A DNA stretch of 64,000 nucleotides from Propionigenium maris DSM 9537 (GTDB lineage Bacteria > Fusobacteriota > Fusobacteriia > Fusobacteriales > Fusobacteriaceae): NCBI RefSeq assembly GCF_027925155.1, contig NZ_BSDY01000013.1, forward strand, positions 1 through 64,000, given 5' to 3'. Both the position numbers and the translations under genes were made by a program. The notes under the pieces are model-generated. The model did not search any database. It was not told where the DNA came from and worked only from the letters and a program-made list of their open reading frames with translations. Each line of letters begins with the position of its first letter. The stretch's first letter is position 1. Shown here piece after piece: positions 6,586 through 39,805 of this stretch.

Positions 6586-6683
6586 TCTATAAGTATTCCT
6601 TCAATGTATAATAAAATTTTCTTAAAAGGGCTATTGAAAAATCAAAAAAACTGTGATATTGTATAGCTAAATTAACAAATATA

Positions 6684-6752
6684 ACGCTCATATATTCTCG
6701 AAATATGGTCGAGAGTCTCTACGGCTAACCTTAAATTAGCTACTATGGGTGA
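6684..6752 (+). promoter_or_regulatory. Purine riboswitch aptamer, guanine/hypoxanthine type
   Basis: All three helices are visible: P1 (CGCTCATA with TATGGGTG), P2 (CTCGA...TCGAG with loop containing ATATGG) and P3 (GCTAA...TTAGC with loop CCTTAAA). The GG and CC of the two loops can form the kissing contact. The core GTCTCTAC and ACTATG are canonical. The specificity base at 6743 is C (ACTATG), the guanine-type state. It precedes a nucleobase permease and an intrinsic terminator, the classic repression arrangement. Confidence 0.9.
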
Positions 6753-6775
6753 TAGGGATAAATTAGATTTTAGGA

Positions 6776-6892: not shown

Positions 6893-8227
6893 ATGACAAA
6901 CAGATCACCTTATCACTTGGACGGGAGACCACCACTTAAGGAGGCGTTCCCTCTTGGGCTTCAGCATATCCTGGCTATGTTTGTAAGTAACCTTGCACCA
7001 ATTCTTATTGTTTCAGGGGCCATAGGAGTTACAGATGCTGAAAGAACTATGCTTGTACAGTGTGCTATGTTAATGGGAGGAGTATGTACTCTAATTCAGA
7101 CCTATAGAATCGGAAGAGTGGGAGCTAAGCTTCCAGTAGTTGTAGGAACAAGCTTTGCCTTTGTACCAGTGGCACTGTCCATTGGTAGCAGATATGGTAT
7201 GGAGGGAGTCCTTGGAGCTGCCCTTGTGGGAGGTATATTTGAAGCTTTCCTGGGAACATTTATCAGTAAAATTAAGAAGTTTTTCCCACCTATTGTAACT
7301 GGTGTTGTAGTGTTGTCCATCGGACTGTCCCTGCTTCCAGTGGGAATTAAGAACTTTGCCGGAGGAGTGGGAGTACAGGACTTTGGTTCCCCTTCAAACC
7401 TTGCTCTTGGATTCATAGTTCTAATTTCAGTTATATTTCTTAAGCAGTTTACCAAGGGAATTACAAGTACAGGAGCTATCGCTCTTGGTACCCTTGTGGG
7501 GGTAGTAGCTGCAACTCTTATGGGTAAGATGAGCTTTGCTCCCATCGGAGAGGCTGCTATCTTTACCCTTCCAAAGCCATTTATGTTTGGATTTGCCTTC
7601 CACCTGGATGCCATCCTGGCTATGATGCTTATGTTTGTGGTATCAGCTGTGGAAACTGTGGGAGATATGTCTGGTGTGGCACTGGCTGCAGGTCAGAGAG
7701 ATCTTAGAGACGATGAACTTACTGGAGGAATCATTGCAGACGGACTTGGAAGTGCCCTCTCCACTGTATTTGGAAACCTGCCAATGACATCATTTAGCCA
7801 GAATACAGGTATCATCATCATGACTGGGGTTGTAAGCAGATTTGTAGTTGGACTGGGAGGAGCTATCCTGGTTGCTGGAGCATTTATTCCTAAGATCGGT
7901 GCTCTATTCACAGCTATTCCTACAAGTGTTATAGGTGGAAGTTTGGTAATGGTATTTGCCATGATTACAATTGGTGGAATCAGGCTGATCACAAAGGAGC
8001 CTCTATCCAACAGAAATAGTCTTATTGTAGCTGTTTCCCTGGGACTTGGATTTGGTCTTGGAAGTGTACCTGAGGCACTGGCTTACTTCCCTGAGGCTAT
8101 TCAGCTTATATTTGGAGGATCGGGAATCGTAGTTGCTGGTGGAATAGCTATCATTATGAATGTTCTTCTTCCTGCAGAGATAGTGGAGACTGAAAAGAGT
8201 GTGGAAGCTAAGCTTCAAAATGCTTAA
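6893..8227 (+). CDS. pbuX: Xanthine/guanine-type nucleobase permease (NCS2 family)
   Basis: A 444-aa NCS2 (UraA/PbuX) permease of the inner membrane, with about 12-14 hydrophobic segments. Family signatures include the LGLQHILAMF motif near residue 21-30, GTSFAFVPVALS in TM3, and the central SAVETVGDMSGV segment that supplies the substrate-binding Glu. The guanine riboswitch in its leader supports a purine, probably xanthine or guanine, over uracil as substrate. RBS TAGGAGGA. A terminator follows, so the gene is monocistronic. Confidence 0.88.
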   Translation: MTNRSPYHLDGRPPLKEAFPLGLQHILAMFVSNLAPILIVSGAIGVTDAERTMLVQCAMLMGGVCTLIQTYRIGRVGAKLPVVVGTSFAFVPVALSIGSRYGMEGVLGAALVGGIFEAFLGTFISKIKKFFPPIVTGVVVLSIGLSLLPVGIKNFAGGVGVQDFGSPSNLALGFIVLISVIFLKQFTKGITSTGAIALGTLVGVVAATLMGKMSFAPIGEAAIFTLPKPFMFGFAFHLDAILAMMLMFVVSAVETVGDMSGVALAAGQRDLRDDELTGGIIADGLGSALSTVFGNLPMTSFSQNTGIIIMTGVVSRFVVGLGGAILVAGAFIPKIGALFTAIPTSVIGGSLVMVFAMITIGGIRLITKEPLSNRNSLIVAVSLGLGFGLGSVPEALAYFPEAIQLIFGGSGIVVAGGIAIIMNVLLPAEIVETEKSVEAKLQNA

Positions 8228-33546: not shown

Positions 33547-34329
33547 ATGAAAAAATTAATATCACTTTTAACGATTACATTTCTTTTAACGGTATCGGGA
33601 GACCTATATGCCAAGAAAGACGGAGAGAGAGGCAAATCATCTGACAGAGGAGGAAGATCGGAATCCGACAGGGGAGACAGGTCCGGCGGAGACAGGGACA
33701 GAGGAAGGTCATCGGATAAAGAGGATAGATCAGATAGATCAGATAGATCAGATAAGTCGGAGAAATCTAGCAAGTCAGAGGAAAGGGAAAAAAATCAGAA
33801 GGCTGTAGACGCCCAGAAGAACTGGGGGCAGCTGAAGGATGAGCTGATGAATGATCCTGAATATGCAGAGAAGTATGCAGGGGAGTATGGGGAGAAGAGG
33901 CTCAAGGAGGAGATCAAGGCCAAGAAGAGAATCAGAAGAGAGGTAAGAAGGAACTACGATTCAGATCTGCCTGAGGATGAGGTTGAAAAGGAGATCGAGA
34001 AACTTGTAGATGATTACTTTAATAGGGAGATTGTTCCTGGTGAAACCGAGGGAGTTGAGATGACTGAGAGATCCCAGAGAAAGATTGAAAAAGCACTTTC
34101 AAAGTATGATACAGCCATTGACAGAATAGATGCCAAGGAGCAGGAGGATACAGAGGATGAGGAGATAGAGGAGGCGCCGGAAACACCGGATATGGGAGAG
34201 ACCCCTGAAGAGCCGGAAACACCAGATATGGGAGAAACTCCTGAGGAGCCTGAAACACCCGATACACCAGAAGTTCCAGAAACACCTGAAGACGGGGGAG
34301 AGGAAGTAGAAAATACCCTAGAAGGATAG
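33547..34329 (+). CDS. Secreted low-complexity charged protein, 260 aa
   Basis: The first 22 residues (MKKLISLLTITFLLTVSGDLYA) are a signal peptide. Residues 23-80 are a Ser/Asp/Arg/Gly-rich segment with repeated RSD and RGD-like triplets, including three RSD units in tandem encoded by repeats of AGATCAGAT near 33726. Residues 85-190 are charged and helical. Residues 195-255 are an acidic Pro/Glu/Thr tail with two copies of PETPDMGETPEE. No enzyme motif is visible. It is probably an exported structural, metal-binding or surface-associated protein. The DNA repeats make unit-number variation likely. Confidence 0.7.
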   Translation: MKKLISLLTITFLLTVSGDLYAKKDGERGKSSDRGGRSESDRGDRSGGDRDRGRSSDKEDRSDRSDRSDKSEKSSKSEEREKNQKAVDAQKNWGQLKDELMNDPEYAEKYAGEYGEKRLKEEIKAKKRIRREVRRNYDSDLPEDEVEKEIEKLVDDYFNREIVPGETEGVEMTERSQRKIEKALSKYDTAIDRIDAKEQEDTEDEEIEEAPETPDMGETPEEPETPDMGETPEEPETPDTPEVPETPEDGGEEVENTLEG

Positions 34330-34605: not shown

Positions 34606-35523
34606 TTAACTCAGCTGGGCTGCAGCTCTTCTTCTCTTGAAATTAATATTAAGCACTCCCATGGATATGAGGATTATCCCCATCCCAGCAACCTGCATAC
34701 CTTCCAGTACCTCCCCAAAGGTTAGGTAGGCAAGAACAGCAGCCACAAGGGGCTCCATGGAGATAATGATACTTCCCGTGCTGGCCTCTACATACTCTGT
34801 GGATTTAACGTAGGCAGCGTTAGGTATAACTGTGTTTATCACTCCCAGGATAAAGAGGTTTACCATCATCCCGTGAAGGTTCCCCCCCTGGAATACCTGG
34901 AAGGTGTTGGCAAGGTCCGTGAAGAACAGGAGAAAGATGCTGGCAAAGAGGAACCCGTAGATAAGTAGGGTATCCTTGCTGTACCTGTCCTCAACAAACT
35001 TCGGCATAACAACCTGAAGGGCAAAGGTTATCCCTGCAACTATGGCAAAACCTATCCCCAGAAGATCCATGTCCAGGCTGTCCAGTTTATACCCCTTGGA
35101 GATAAGGAAACACCCCATGAGGGAAAGCCCTATGGCCAAGCCCTTCCTCGCAGTGAGCTTCTCCCTGAAGAATATCTTGGAGAAGATGATAACCCATACA
35201 GGGGAAGTGAACATAAGCACCGTGGCAACAGCTATTGGTATCCTTGAAACAGCTATATTGTAGGCAACAAAGGCCAGACCAAAGCTCAGAATACCATAGA
35301 CAGCACAGAAGAGAAGCCCCCTTCCGTCTATCTTCAGCACGCTTCTGTCCTTCCTCCCGAAGAACACCAGGTAAAATACAAAGGCTATTGCAGTACGGAA
35401 GAAGGAGATTGAGAAGGGATCCAGCTGGAACTCATTCAGGTTCCTTATGGTGATCCCCATAGATCCCCAGAATAATGCCGCCATGGCTACCATGAGCAGA
35501 CCGATACTTCTTTTGTTTTTCAT
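34606..35523 (-). CDS. EamA/DMT-superfamily transporter
   Basis: A 305-aa inner-membrane protein with ten hydrophobic helices in two homologous EamA halves (AALFWGSMGITIR... and GIGFAIVAGITFALQVVMPKF...). DMT proteins export amino acids, nucleosides, drugs or other metabolites; substrate cannot be read from the sequence. Expression appears governed by the leader at 35558-35740, which has tandem structured units and a terminator just before the RBS TAGGAGGA. Its regulation by a putative RNA ligand sensor would identify the exported compound. Confidence 0.85.
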   Translation of the reverse strand: MKNKRSIGLLMVAMAALFWGSMGITIRNLNEFQLDPFSISFFRTAIAFVFYLVFFGRKDRSVLKIDGRGLLFCAVYGILSFGLAFVAYNIAVSRIPIAVATVLMFTSPVWVIIFSKIFFREKLTARKGLAIGLSLMGCFLISKGYKLDSLDMDLLGIGFAIVAGITFALQVVMPKFVEDRYSKDTLLIYGFLFASIFLLFFTDLANTFQVFQGGNLHGMMVNLFILGVINTVIPNAAYVKSTEYVEASTGSIIISMEPLVAAVLAYLTFGEVLEGMQVAGMGIILISMGVLNINFKRRRAAAQLS

Positions 35524-35551
35524 AAAAAAATCCTCCTAAAATTTTGGTAAC

Positions 35552-35577
35552 AAAAAAAAGACAACCGCAGCTGTCTT
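35552..35577 (-). terminator. Leader terminator upstream of the EamA gene
   Basis: Minus-strand hairpin AAGACA-gctgcgg-TTGTCTT followed by T8, ending about 28 bases before the EamA start codon. A second T10 run lies just upstream (35579-35588), directly after CCAGTTG, which can pair with CAAACTGG at the 5' end of the leader. Confidence 0.8.
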
Positions 35578-35588
35578 CAAAAAAAAAA

Positions 35589-35740
35589 CAACTGGATCAA
35601 CAATTCAATTTAGCGGAATGGACGTAGTAACGCCTGATGACACTTCCGCAGCACCAGTGAAATGGACGGCAACTTCCCGCCTAATGACACTCTCACAGCA
35701 CCCTTGAACTGGTGAAACCCAGTTTGATGATATTTAATAT
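35589..35740 (-). ncRNA. Candidate tandem-aptamer riboswitch in the EamA leader
   Basis: Two units at 35663-35717 and 35619-35662 share the order GGUGCU, stem A, GUGUCAUYA, stem B, CA, stem A'. Stem A is GUGAGA/UUUCAC in the first and GCGGAA/UUCCGC in the second. Stem B is GGCGG/CCGUC and GGCGU/ACGUC. Both stems keep pairing while their bases change, and the internal loop stays constant. The ends (CAAACUGG and CCAGUUG) can close the whole domain. Promoter, leader and terminator are all in place. I do not match it to a riboswitch class known to me. Confidence 0.7.
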
Positions 35741-35746
35741 TGTTTT

Positions 35747-35775
35747 ATGTTATCAAATCCAAAAAAATCTGTCAA
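35747..35775 (-). promoter_or_regulatory. Promoter of the EamA leader
   Basis: Minus-strand TTGACA and TAACAT with a 17-bp spacer, giving a start near 35740 and a leader of about 217 bases. Confidence 0.8.
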
Positions 35776-36237: not shown

Positions 36238-37434
36238 ATGAAACAGGATAGTGATCTTAAAGTAAAAATTCAAAAACCTAAGTTATATCAAGGTAAAAAC
36301 TACCCTTTGGAATGTATTGGAGATCAAGAATTTGAAAAAATTACATCAATCCTTTTTAATTGCAGTAGGGAATTAAAAGGAAAATATGATTATTCTAAAG
36401 CAGAATTAATAGAAGGTGGATCAGACAAAGGTCGAGATGTTATTTGTTATGATGAAAATGAAGAAGTGAATATTATAATTCAGTGTAAACATTCTATAAA
36501 TCGCCATACTAAAATGGGGAAGCTTTATGGACAAAAAGAAATATTAAAGACAATAGCAAATATATACCTAGACAAAAGTATGGTAAAGGAAAATGAATTT
36601 AAATATATTCTATTCATTGCATATGGTATAACTGTTGAAAACAAAAATAGTTTAGAAAAGTTTTTTTATGAAGATGTAATGGAAAAGGACACTATTCTTA
36701 GGCAAAGAATTAATAAATTAAAATCAGATGATGGAGAAGGGTTTGTAAAAATTAGAGAAGGAATTCCAAAAGTTACAAATAGCGTTTTAGAAGATTTTAG
36801 AAAAATTGCTAAGAGAATGACGATTCATGTAGAGGAAGAAAAAGAAATTCAAAGTTATTTAAGAAACGTAGAAGCAATAAAATTTAAAGATTTCTTTGAA
36901 ATGAAAATAGTTATAGAAAAACCTAAAGATTTATTTGCTTTCCAGCCTAATAATGATAAAGAAATGTTAAAGAGTGATGAGGTAAAAAAACATAAAGAAA
37001 AAATATTTTATAAAGAGTTGGAGAAAATAGAATTAGATAATAAAAGTAAAGAAGAAGCGTTATTAGACTTTCAAAAAAAAATACTTTGGCAGTTAGAATT
37101 GATAGATCATATGGAAGTAGAAGGAGAAAAATTGAGATATTCTTTAAGTGAATATGAAAAGGATATTTTAAGTAAAGAAAACGGCCATAGAATGAATTAT
37201 AAAGATGATATTTTGTTAACAAATGATGGTGAAGGAATAGAAAAACTAGCTGTTCCAACTCAAAAGACACATTCAAGAAAGTACTATAGACAATTTATGA
37301 ATGATATAACAAGAGAAGTAGCAACTTTAAGAGGATTTTCTGAAGTACCTTCAGGATTTACTAAAGGAACATGCCACGATTTAGTAGAGTCAAAAGAGAT
37401 TAAAGGGTGGCATTTAGGAGAGAAGGAGGAATAA
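36238..37434 (+). CDS. ABC-3C system effector with Mrr-like nuclease domain
   Basis: A 398-aa protein. Residues 25-130 resemble an Mrr/restriction-endonuclease-like PD-(D/E)XK domain: Glu32/Glu34 in the first helix, Asp67 in GSDKGRDVICY and Gln82-Cys83-Lys84 in IIIQCKHS form the usual D...QxK core. The C-terminal region (about 230-398) is charged and helical, ending in a segment with TREVATLRGFSEVPSG, and probably binds the middle component. Together with the next two genes it matches the layout of ABC three-component conflict systems. GC content is far lower than in neighbouring genes, which suggests acquisition by transfer. RBS AGGAGGGG. Confidence 0.75.
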   Translation: MKQDSDLKVKIQKPKLYQGKNYPLECIGDQEFEKITSILFNCSRELKGKYDYSKAELIEGGSDKGRDVICYDENEEVNIIIQCKHSINRHTKMGKLYGQKEILKTIANIYLDKSMVKENEFKYILFIAYGITVENKNSLEKFFYEDVMEKDTILRQRINKLKSDDGEGFVKIREGIPKVTNSVLEDFRKIAKRMTIHVEEEKEIQSYLRNVEAIKFKDFFEMKIVIEKPKDLFAFQPNNDKEMLKSDEVKKHKEKIFYKELEKIELDNKSKEEALLDFQKKILWQLELIDHMEVEGEKLRYSLSEYEKDILSKENGHRMNYKDDILLTNDGEGIEKLAVPTQKTHSRKYYRQFMNDITREVATLRGFSEVPSGFTKGTCHDLVESKEIKGWHLGEKEE

Positions 37435-37436
37435 GA

Positions 37437-37904
37437 ATGTCAAGTTTTGGTCAAAAGCTAATAAAAGTTACAGATAATCCATTTTTTATTGCTGAAATTT
37501 TAGCAGTTGCATTTGAAAATTTTATAGATAAAAGAAGAGCTACCTTGTGGGATGCTTACCTTATAATTCCTCTAATTCTGAAAAAAAGAACTAGAGAGAG
37601 GTTTGTTTCAACAAATAAAACAGGAACAATAATAAACTTATTTTCAGAAATTAAAAAAGTTGATTTATTAAGTTTGGAAGAAGATGTAAAAGTATATAAA
37701 AAGAAGGTTAACAAAGCAATTATTATTGGAATTGAAAGAGGTATAATATCTTTGAATAAGGAAACTTTAAGCTTAAATGGTAAGAAGACGAAGGGATTAT
37801 TAGAGGACGAAAATTATAGAAAAGCTTCTCAAAATATAGGAAAAATATTTAGTAAATACGAGGTTTATGAAATATTTGAATTTATGGAGGTATACAACAT
37901 ATGA
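37437..37904 (+). CDS. ABC-3C system middle component
   Basis: A 155-aa protein resembling the middle component of ABC-3C systems: FGQKLIKVTDNPFFIAEILAVAFENF at the start, then LWDAYLIIPLILKKRTRERF, a small helical/winged-helix-like body and a RGIISLNKETLSLNGKK segment. The start MSSFGQK is chosen because GAAGGAGG precedes it and the upstream gene ends two bases before. Its stop overlaps the ATPase start (ATGA), so translation is coupled. In this family the middle component is thought to connect the ATPase with the effector. Confidence 0.78.
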   Translation: MSSFGQKLIKVTDNPFFIAEILAVAFENFIDKRRATLWDAYLIIPLILKKRTRERFVSTNKTGTIINLFSEIKKVDLLSLEEDVKVYKKKVNKAIIIGIERGIISLNKETLSLNGKKTKGLLEDENYRKASQNIGKIFSKYEVYEIFEFMEVYNI

Positions 37905-39805
37905 AATCTTACATTTCAAGAATAATAGCTTTTTCAGAAGATGGATATAAAAATGAAGTGAAGTTAAAAGAAGGTTTAAATGTAATTACTGGAAATTCTA
38001 AAACAGGAAAGAGTGCGTTACTTGAAGTAGTAGATTATTGCCTCTTTAATTCAGCAGATTGTATTCCGGCAGGGGTTGTAAGGGAGAATATTGAAGTATA
38101 CGCAGTTGTTATAGTTTTTCAAGATAAAAAACTTATTTTAGGTAGAAAACCATTTAATAATGGTGGTAATAGAACAGGATTCTATTCTCTAGAAAGTTTG
38201 GGCTTTCAAGAAAAGAATATAGATTCTAATTATTTTAAAAATAAAAAAAGTAACTTTAGACCAAAATCTGAAGTGATTAAATTTTTATTAGAGATATTTA
38301 ATGTTAGCACATCTACAAGAACAACTTATGTTAATAATAAGCTAAAAAAGCAGACTCCTACTATCAGAAATATTTCTTCTTTTATTTTTCAACATCAAAA
38401 TTTAATAGCAAGTAAGTTTGCCTTATTCTATAGGTTAGATAACTCTGAAAAAAGAAAATCTGTAATTACAGAGTTTCCTATTTTTACGGGATTAGTAAAC
38501 CAAAACTATTATCAATTAGCCGTAACCAAAGAGGAGCTAATCAAAGAAAAAAAACGTTTAGAGAGAGAAATAAAAATAAATAACCAGCTTGAAGAAAGTT
38601 TTATATCTAAAGTTAATAAACTAAGGGCTGAAGTTTCTGAATTATTAAATATTTCTAATGATTTTAACTTAGATGAATTAGAAATCAGTAGCCATATTAA
38701 AAATACAGATACTTTACTTAGGGAAAAACTAAAGTTAGAAGATGAGGTAGAAGGATTAGAAAAAAATATTTATCAAACAGGACTACAGTTGTCAAATCTA
38801 AATAAAGTAATCATTTCTAGTAATAAAATAGAAGATAAACTTAAAAAAAGAGCATCAATGAACTTTCATGAAGTCGAGAAATGTCCTCTTTGTAACTCCG
38901 AGCTAGAAGAGCTTAATAATGAAATAAAGAGTTTAAATAATCAAAAAAAAGAGATATTTGGGATGCTTACTGGTGTTCAAAAAACTTCACCTAGAGTAAT
39001 TGAACGTCAAAATGAATTAAAAGTGAGTCTTGAAAGTTTAAAGAGATTAAAGAATAAGAAAAATAGAGAACTAAAGGACATTGAAGAAGCATTTGATTTA
39101 TCAAAAAAGAAAAGTTTATATCATTATATTTTCGAAAAAAAAATAGAGTTAGAAATAACAGAAAAAAAACTTACTAATAAGGATGGAGAACTAGAAAAAG
39201 AATACGATAAAATTTCTGAAGAATTAGATGATTTAGTTAGAGAATTAGATGGATATGATTTAGAAAAGAAAAAATCTGAAGCAGAAGTTGAAATTTCAAA
39301 ATTTATGAATAAAATGGCTAAAAAGCTAGATTTTGAAGTAAGCTTGGGAAAACCAGATTTAGTTTTTGATTTGAAAAACTTTGATTTATATCAAAGGCGA
39401 GGAAACGGGAAAATTTATTTATCATCTATGGGGAGTGGCTCCAATTGGTTAACATGCCATTTATCATTATTTATGGGGTTACATTATTATTTTGCAAGTA
39501 GAGGAAATAAATGTTCTATTCCAAATATTTTGTTTTTAGATCAACCAAGTCAAGTGTACTTTCCTGATAAAGAATCTATACACAATAAAGAATCTAAAGA
39601 TTATAAAAATGTTGAAGAAATTTATAAGGCAATTTTATGGGGAATTAGAGAAATTGAAAAAGAGACTGAAATAAAACCACAAGTTATTATTATGGATCAT
39701 GCTGATAATTTGGATTTAGGTAAAGAAAATGATTTTGAAAGTTATGTAAATGGAAATAGGTGGAAAGAAAAAGGAGAAGGATTTATAAAGGTTGATCAAA
39801 ATTAG
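37901..39805 (+). CDS. ABC-3C ATPase (DUF3732, SMC/Rad50-like)
   Basis: A 634-aa coiled-coil ABC ATPase. Walker A is GNSKTGKS (residues 31-38), a long coiled coil spans about 205-480 with a CPLC zinc-hook-like turn in its middle, the ABC signature is SSMGSGSNWL, Walker B is ILFLDQPSQVYFP, and the H-loop-like MDHADNL follows. The DQPSQVYFP motif is characteristic of DUF3732. It probably senses a nucleic-acid state and licenses the Mrr-like effector. It is AT-rich like its two partners. No other defence gene is adjacent. Confidence 0.88.
   Translation: MKSYISRIIAFSEDGYKNEVKLKEGLNVITGNSKTGKSALLEVVDYCLFNSADCIPAGVVRENIEVYAVVIVFQDKKLILGRKPFNNGGNRTGFYSLESLGFQEKNIDSNYFKNKKSNFRPKSEVIKFLLEIFNVSTSTRTTYVNNKLKKQTPTIRNISSFIFQHQNLIASKFALFYRLDNSEKRKSVITEFPIFTGLVNQNYYQLAVTKEELIKEKKRLEREIKINNQLEESFISKVNKLRAEVSELLNISNDFNLDELEISSHIKNTDTLLREKLKLEDEVEGLEKNIYQTGLQLSNLNKVIISSNKIEDKLKKRASMNFHEVEKCPLCNSELEELNNEIKSLNNQKKEIFGMLTGVQKTSPRVIERQNELKVSLESLKRLKNKKNRELKDIEEAFDLSKKKSLYHYIFEKKIELEITEKKLTNKDGELEKEYDKISEELDDLVRELDGYDLEKKKSEAEVEISKFMNKMAKKLDFEVSLGKPDLVFDLKNFDLYQRRGNGKIYLSSMGSGSNWLTCHLSLFMGLHYYFASRGNKCSIPNILFLDQPSQVYFPDKESIHNKESKDYKNVEEIYKAILWGIREIEKETEIKPQVIIMDHADNLDLGKENDFESYVNGNRWKEKGEGFIKVDQN

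Follow-up and report, generated by a model that had tools for sequence, protein, structure and literature searches.

A conserved tandem leader RNA and candidate orphan riboswitch upstream of EamA and MATE exporter genes in two Fusobacteriota genera

Guanidine-IV riboswitches and their Gd4v variant are found upstream of MATE genes and link two hairpins through a pseudoknot, with the 3′ hairpin acting as the terminator (PMC7736828; PMC9788692). Guanidine-II (mini-ykkC) RNAs are defined by ACG trimers in both of their hairpin loops (PMC7736828), and ykkC subtype 2d is an orphan riboswitch located upstream of EamA transporters (PMC7266159). Here we describe a leader RNA with two adjacent units of the same design, which precedes an EamA gene in a 64,000-nucleotide stretch of the Propionigenium maris DSM 9537 genome (hereafter the window, meaning the whole stretch that was analysed). 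The original prediction had presented it as a class it did not recognise. In agreement, a search of the leader against Rfam 15 returned no match at the gathering score, nor up to E 10 with permissive filters. Motifs of a recent 50-genome survey are represented in the library, among them nqrA-II and manA-II, as is the glycine aptamer model, which likewise gave no match to the window leader up to E 10. Searched in the same way, the other tandem leaders described below yielded nothing noteworthy, the matches listed up to E 10 being chance. Nor did the open literature searched yield any account of the tandem element, although this is no proof of absence. A purine riboswitch (RF00167, 72 bits) is present at 6668–6765 (+) of the window, upstream of a gene for a 444-aa membrane protein (6893–8227) which, judged by eye, resembles a xanthine/uracil-type permease.

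The leader comprises about 217 nt on the minus strand, from approximately 35740 to 35524, and ends at the start codon of the EamA gene at 35523 (Table 1). Both its length and its promoter had been proposed in the original prediction and were located in the sequence. The promoters of other tandem leaders read TTGACA-17-TAGAAT and TTGACA-17-TATAAT. Close relatives of the EamA gene are lacking in other Fusobacteriota, the best identity being 27–31%. The leader adjoins three plus-strand genes (36238–39805) that resemble a Lamassu/ABC-three-component defence locus and encode a protein with a weak match to Mrr-like restriction endonucleases, an LmuC/MC3 middle component, and an LmuB/DUF3732 ATPase. 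The window also encodes, at 33547–34329 (+), a 260-aa protein without a Pfam family, which begins with a signal-peptide-like stretch and contains TPEEPETPDMGE repeats as well as a region rich in S, D, R, and K.

Table 1. Features of the EamA leader and its gene, in window coordinates.
Feature	Position	Strand	Evidence
Promoter, TTGACA-17-TAACAT	35747..35775	−	10/12 consensus letters, TG ahead of −10
5′ hairpin H5: s1 AACUGG (35724..35719) with s1′ CCAGUU (35712..35707)	35707..35724	−	Energy beats 400/400 shuffles
Domain-closing helix P0: AGUUCAA (35710..35704) paired to UUGAAUU (35608..35602)	35602..35710	−	Flank pairing beats 400/400 shuffles
Unit 1: GGUGCU, P1 GUGAGA/UUUCAC, GUGUCAUUA, P2 GGCGG/CCGUC, CA	35656..35702	−	54.8 bits, model R1
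Unit 2: GGUGCU, P1 GCGGAA/UUCCGC, GUGUCAUCA, P2 GGCGU/ACGUC, CA	35612..35655	−	59.5 bits, model R1
Antiterminator alternative: s2 CAGUUGUUUU (35594..35585) with AAGACAGCUG (35577..35568)	35568..35594	−	Local energy −11.7 vs terminator −9.5
Intrinsic terminator AAGACAGC/GUUGUCUU and U tail, 8-bp hairpin	35552..35577	−	3/400 shuffles fold equally well
Ribosome binding site AGGAGG	35532..35537	−	Sequence
EamA-family transporter, 305 aa	34606..35523	−	Pfam EamA 7.5e-45

Each unit spans 43–47 nt and follows the general plan GGUGCU / P1 / GUGUCRUYA / P2 / CA / P1′. The resulting hairpin carries a conserved 9/2 internal loop, in which GUGUCRUYA lies opposite CA, and a short P2 cap, with GGUGCU placed 5′ of the hairpin. 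In the window, where P1 has 6 bp, P2 has 5 bp, and the long side of the loop reads GUGUCAUYA, the letters of P1 and P2 differ between the two units and pairing is retained, exactly as had been claimed. The unit alignment shows no variation in GGUGCU, in CA, or in six of the nine internal-loop letters; the terminal loops are variable (GAAGUUG, UACU, UUAUU, UUAUG, GAAU, AAAU, and UAAA). A helix between the GGUGCU motifs of units 1 and 2 appears in predicted folds, but it consists mostly of wobbles, and the motif is identical in all copies, which provides no evidence for pairing.

Covariation in homologues had been named as a test of the element, and the pairing is indeed kept. Standard pairs occupy 96.8% of the pair cells in the unit alignment, compared with 40–50% when the partner is slid by one to three columns. 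Six of the nine modelled pairs have changed on both sides, which only 2 of 500 shuffles equal, and none of 500 shuffles reaches the covariation score, in a sample that is small (seven distinct units from about three independent leaders). The fourth P2 pair, outside this 9-pair structure, is G-C, A-U, U-A, or C-G depending on the unit. P1 of unit 1 is nearly constant across leaders, and much of the covariation is found between paralogous units.

Homologous leaders exist outside the window. When 61 related genomes were searched by blastn with the window leader, hits came from elsewhere in the P. maris genome (G000:C2:284964, E 1.8e-10) and from three genomes of another genus (E ~1e-9); the homologues are 77–79% identical, and every copy has two units. 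We then built a covariance model of the unit from seven sequences (R1), which detected 12 units in five of 98 Fusobacteriota genomes, all in tandem pairs and scoring 51 to 65 bits. The next-best match (23.7 bits) lies in a sixth listed genome, antisense within a carboxyltransferase-like gene, and was set aside as chance level. To avoid circularity, a further model (R2) was made from the two window units alone. Within 220 kb of loci, R2 found each of the ten units in the five other leaders, which precede MATE genes (29.6–48.2 bits, with E between 2e-5 and 1e-10), and its best match outside a leader had E 0.49. In total, six tandem leaders were found, two in the P. maris genome (one EamA, one MATE) and one in each of four genomes of a second genus (g12; MATE). 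A search of Fusobacteriota and Firmicutes genomes had been suggested in the original prediction, and homologues were found in the former; one sample of about 400 Bacillota genomes, searched with R1 without a positive control, gave zero units. A distant blastn search of plasmids and phages with the leader gave no match either. Among the matches listed in a contig scan with the loose pattern GGTGCTN{5,8}GTGTCRTYAGG, 80 loci were scored with R1 and all reached 21 bits or less, and the matches on viral contigs were weak or partial (at most 25.6 bits); both sets were regarded as chance. With homologues found in two Fusobacteriota genera only, the class looks rare as judged from sequence searches.

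The gene downstream of the leader encodes an EamA exporter once and a MATE exporter in the other five cases, one of which is broken. The second leader in the P. maris genome precedes a MATE gene, and the g12 leaders precede related MATE genes that are 56–57% identical where intact. In one g12 genome (G023), the MATE gene that follows its tandem leader (C2, L140) lacks its 5′ part and contains one internal stop, and the same genome has a leaderless relative of this broken gene (C5, L223), possibly an escape from the control exerted by the tandem leader. Neighbours of the L223 gene encode an AraC/cupin regulator, cupin-BFD proteins, a glyoxalase, and an FMN oxidoreductase, a neighbourhood that hints at defence against toxic small molecules. 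A further 40 MATE/EamA loci of Fusobacteriota and Bacillota were also inspected. No known riboswitch precedes the transporter in any of them, and they offer no hint at the ligand; the one T-box present is encoded on the opposite strand from a MATE gene. At L138, a gene for a MarR/wHTH-like regulator (7222–7599, −) is divergent from the MATE gene with the second tandem leader and may provide a second, DNA-level control.

Such a regulator, together with direct repeats of about 44 bp, would also fit DNA operator sites for a transcription factor, with no RNA element involved. We give this explanation hardly any credence, given that the P. maris genome contains only four units, all within its two leaders, that units always lie between promoter and terminator on the coding strand, and that the stems vary on both sides while the unpaired letters are constant. 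The tandem leader RNA is real, conserved, and structured, and it occurs upstream of exporter genes in two Fusobacteriota genera.

The sequences flanking the units add a layer that goes beyond the original prediction, namely a closing helix (P0), a competing 5′ hairpin (H5), and an antiterminator alternative. The pairing between the leader ends that had been noted before is present (CAAACUGG, 35726..35719, complementary to CCAGUUG, 35595..35589, with T10 right after it), and so is the separate hairpin with its T tail ahead of the ribosome binding site. P0 itself has 7 bp and can be extended outward by pairing of s1 with s2 (35724..35719 with 35595..35590). It overlaps s1′ of H5, and the two helices are mutually exclusive. 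A counterpart of P0 is found in the P. maris MATE leader (CAAUUCA/UGGAUUG) and in g12, as CGAUUC/GAAUUG by eye from the alignment or as UCAAU/AUUGA in another register. None of 400 shuffles equals the pairing of the 5′ and 3′ flanks in the EamA leader or in either of the two g12 leaders tested; in the P. maris MATE leader this pairing is marginal (39 of 400 shuffles as good). A terminator hairpin followed by a U run is present in all four leaders tested, where 0 to 5 of 400 shuffles do as well; the antiterminator hairpins taken alone are no better than shuffles.

The closed domain and the H5/antiterminator arrangement of the EamA leader are isoenergetic (−54.6 and −54.3 kcal/mol). Forcing P0 gives a terminator probability of 1.00, and forcing H5 gives an antiterminator probability of 1.00. 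Counterpart strands are also present in the other leaders. Coupling is weak in the P. maris MATE leader, where enforcing the units brings the states near balance, and the terminator dominates in those of g12. Folding models thus leave the two-state switch layout well supported for the EamA leader only, with weaker coupling elsewhere.

Leader-peptide attenuation is known for some antibiotic-induced efflux genes, and ribosome-mediated control of this kind could apply to EamA and MATE genes as drug/metabolite transporters. It is nevertheless most improbable here. Neither the EamA nor the G031 leader has an ATG-started reading frame of at least six codons, no frame with a ribosome binding site is common to the tandem leaders, and the conserved letters are not codon-like.

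Taken together, these features make it probable that the EamA leader is a cis-acting structured RNA that works by transcription attenuation; its likeliest identity is an orphan riboswitch whose single domain comprises two paralogous aptamer-like hairpins. This riboswitch reading is supported by the recurrence of the tandem leader in two genera ahead of EamA and MATE genes, by the recovery of the other leaders' units with a model of the window units alone, and by pair-preserving changes combined with invariant GGUGCU, CA, and most of the internal-loop letters. Further support comes from the placement of the domain between a strong promoter and a terminator, from the mutually exclusive, isoenergetic states of the EamA leader, and from the lack of both a shared leader peptide and an Rfam match. 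Counting against it are the small number of independent leaders, their restriction to two genera, the weak coupling outside the EamA leader, and the predicted OFF sense discussed below. The findings that the original prediction had named as speaking against it or its novelty were an Rfam hit, a lack of homologous leaders, and a lack of covariation; each was looked for and none was obtained.

In the putative order of folding, H5 would fold first as the RNA emerges from the strong promoter. Once both units are transcribed, P0, extended by s1:s2, may displace H5 and join the units into a three-way junction. This closed form would consume s2 and let the terminator form. In the open form, H5 would be kept and s2 would pair with the 5′ arm of the terminator, resulting in read-through. 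A putative ligand bound in the unit loops would shift the balance between the two forms, and the presence of two units could sharpen the response, a putative cooperativity. We lean slightly towards the fuller proposal of a new riboswitch class, in which two very small paralogous aptamers of 43–47 nt within one three-way junction would respond to a ligand in Fusobacteriota and act as a strand-exchange terminator switch for genes of two unrelated exporter families, EamA and MATE.

The original prediction is supported in part. A structured tandem RNA on a terminator-based platform was found, but control of the export of its own ligand does not follow in simple form. In the classic riboswitch layout the ligand stabilises the closed domain, and since the closed form is predicted to have the terminator, a switch closed by its ligand would be OFF. 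Going by the folding models, this is awkward for an exporter of the ligand itself without an extra assumption; where a toxic ligand is exported, an ON switch would be expected. The mismatch would disappear if it were the open form that the ligand favours, if the transporters were importers, or if the ligand signalled something other than the transported compound.

The same platform could be operated by a regulatory RNA-binding protein, with the two hairpins serving as its sites in antitermination or attenuation. Repeated hairpins with a conserved internal loop would also suit a dimeric protein. We regard this as unlikely, although far from negligible: the fixed letters of GGUGCU, GUGUCRUYA, and CA are numerous for a protein site, both units are closed into a single junction, and no such protein was seen encoded beside the leaders in the neighbourhoods examined.

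If the tandem RNA binds a ligand, it would represent a new riboswitch class. That ligand would then give a clue to the substrate of two exporter families, whose members mostly carry no annotation beyond drug/metabolite transporter. Its small duplicated units within one junction would make a compact system for studying the cooperativity of tandem aptamers for the same ligand. The narrow distribution is consistent with the view that many rare riboswitch classes are still undiscovered.

Compared with described systems, the tandem leader shares with guanidine-IV/Gd4v riboswitches the role of a transcription-terminator leader RNA before MATE and other exporter genes (PMC7736828; PMC9788692), which raises the question of a diverged relative beyond the reach of the library model. 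We consider such a relationship very unlikely. By published description, on which this comparison rests, guanidine-IV is a single pseudoknotted domain from several phyla that has no duplicated GGUGCU/GUGUCRUYA units and whose 3′ hairpin is itself the terminator, whereas in the tandem leader a separate terminator follows the two unit hairpins, the unit terminal loops are not conserved, and no Rfam match is obtained up to E 10, in a library whose coverage of guanidine-IV is unconfirmed. Guanidine-II resembles the leader in its two small successive hairpins ahead of exporter genes, but its ACG loop trimers are missing from all unit loops listed above. With ykkC subtype 2d, the leader has in common that it is an orphan leader RNA before EamA genes; that subtype has the ykkC fold, and no ykkC-type Rfam match occurs here. 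Similar to the tandem glycine riboswitch (gcvT), finally, two similar aptamers would be adjacent in one leader, but in the present case the leader precedes exporter genes and its units are small, each of 43–47 nt with one internal loop.
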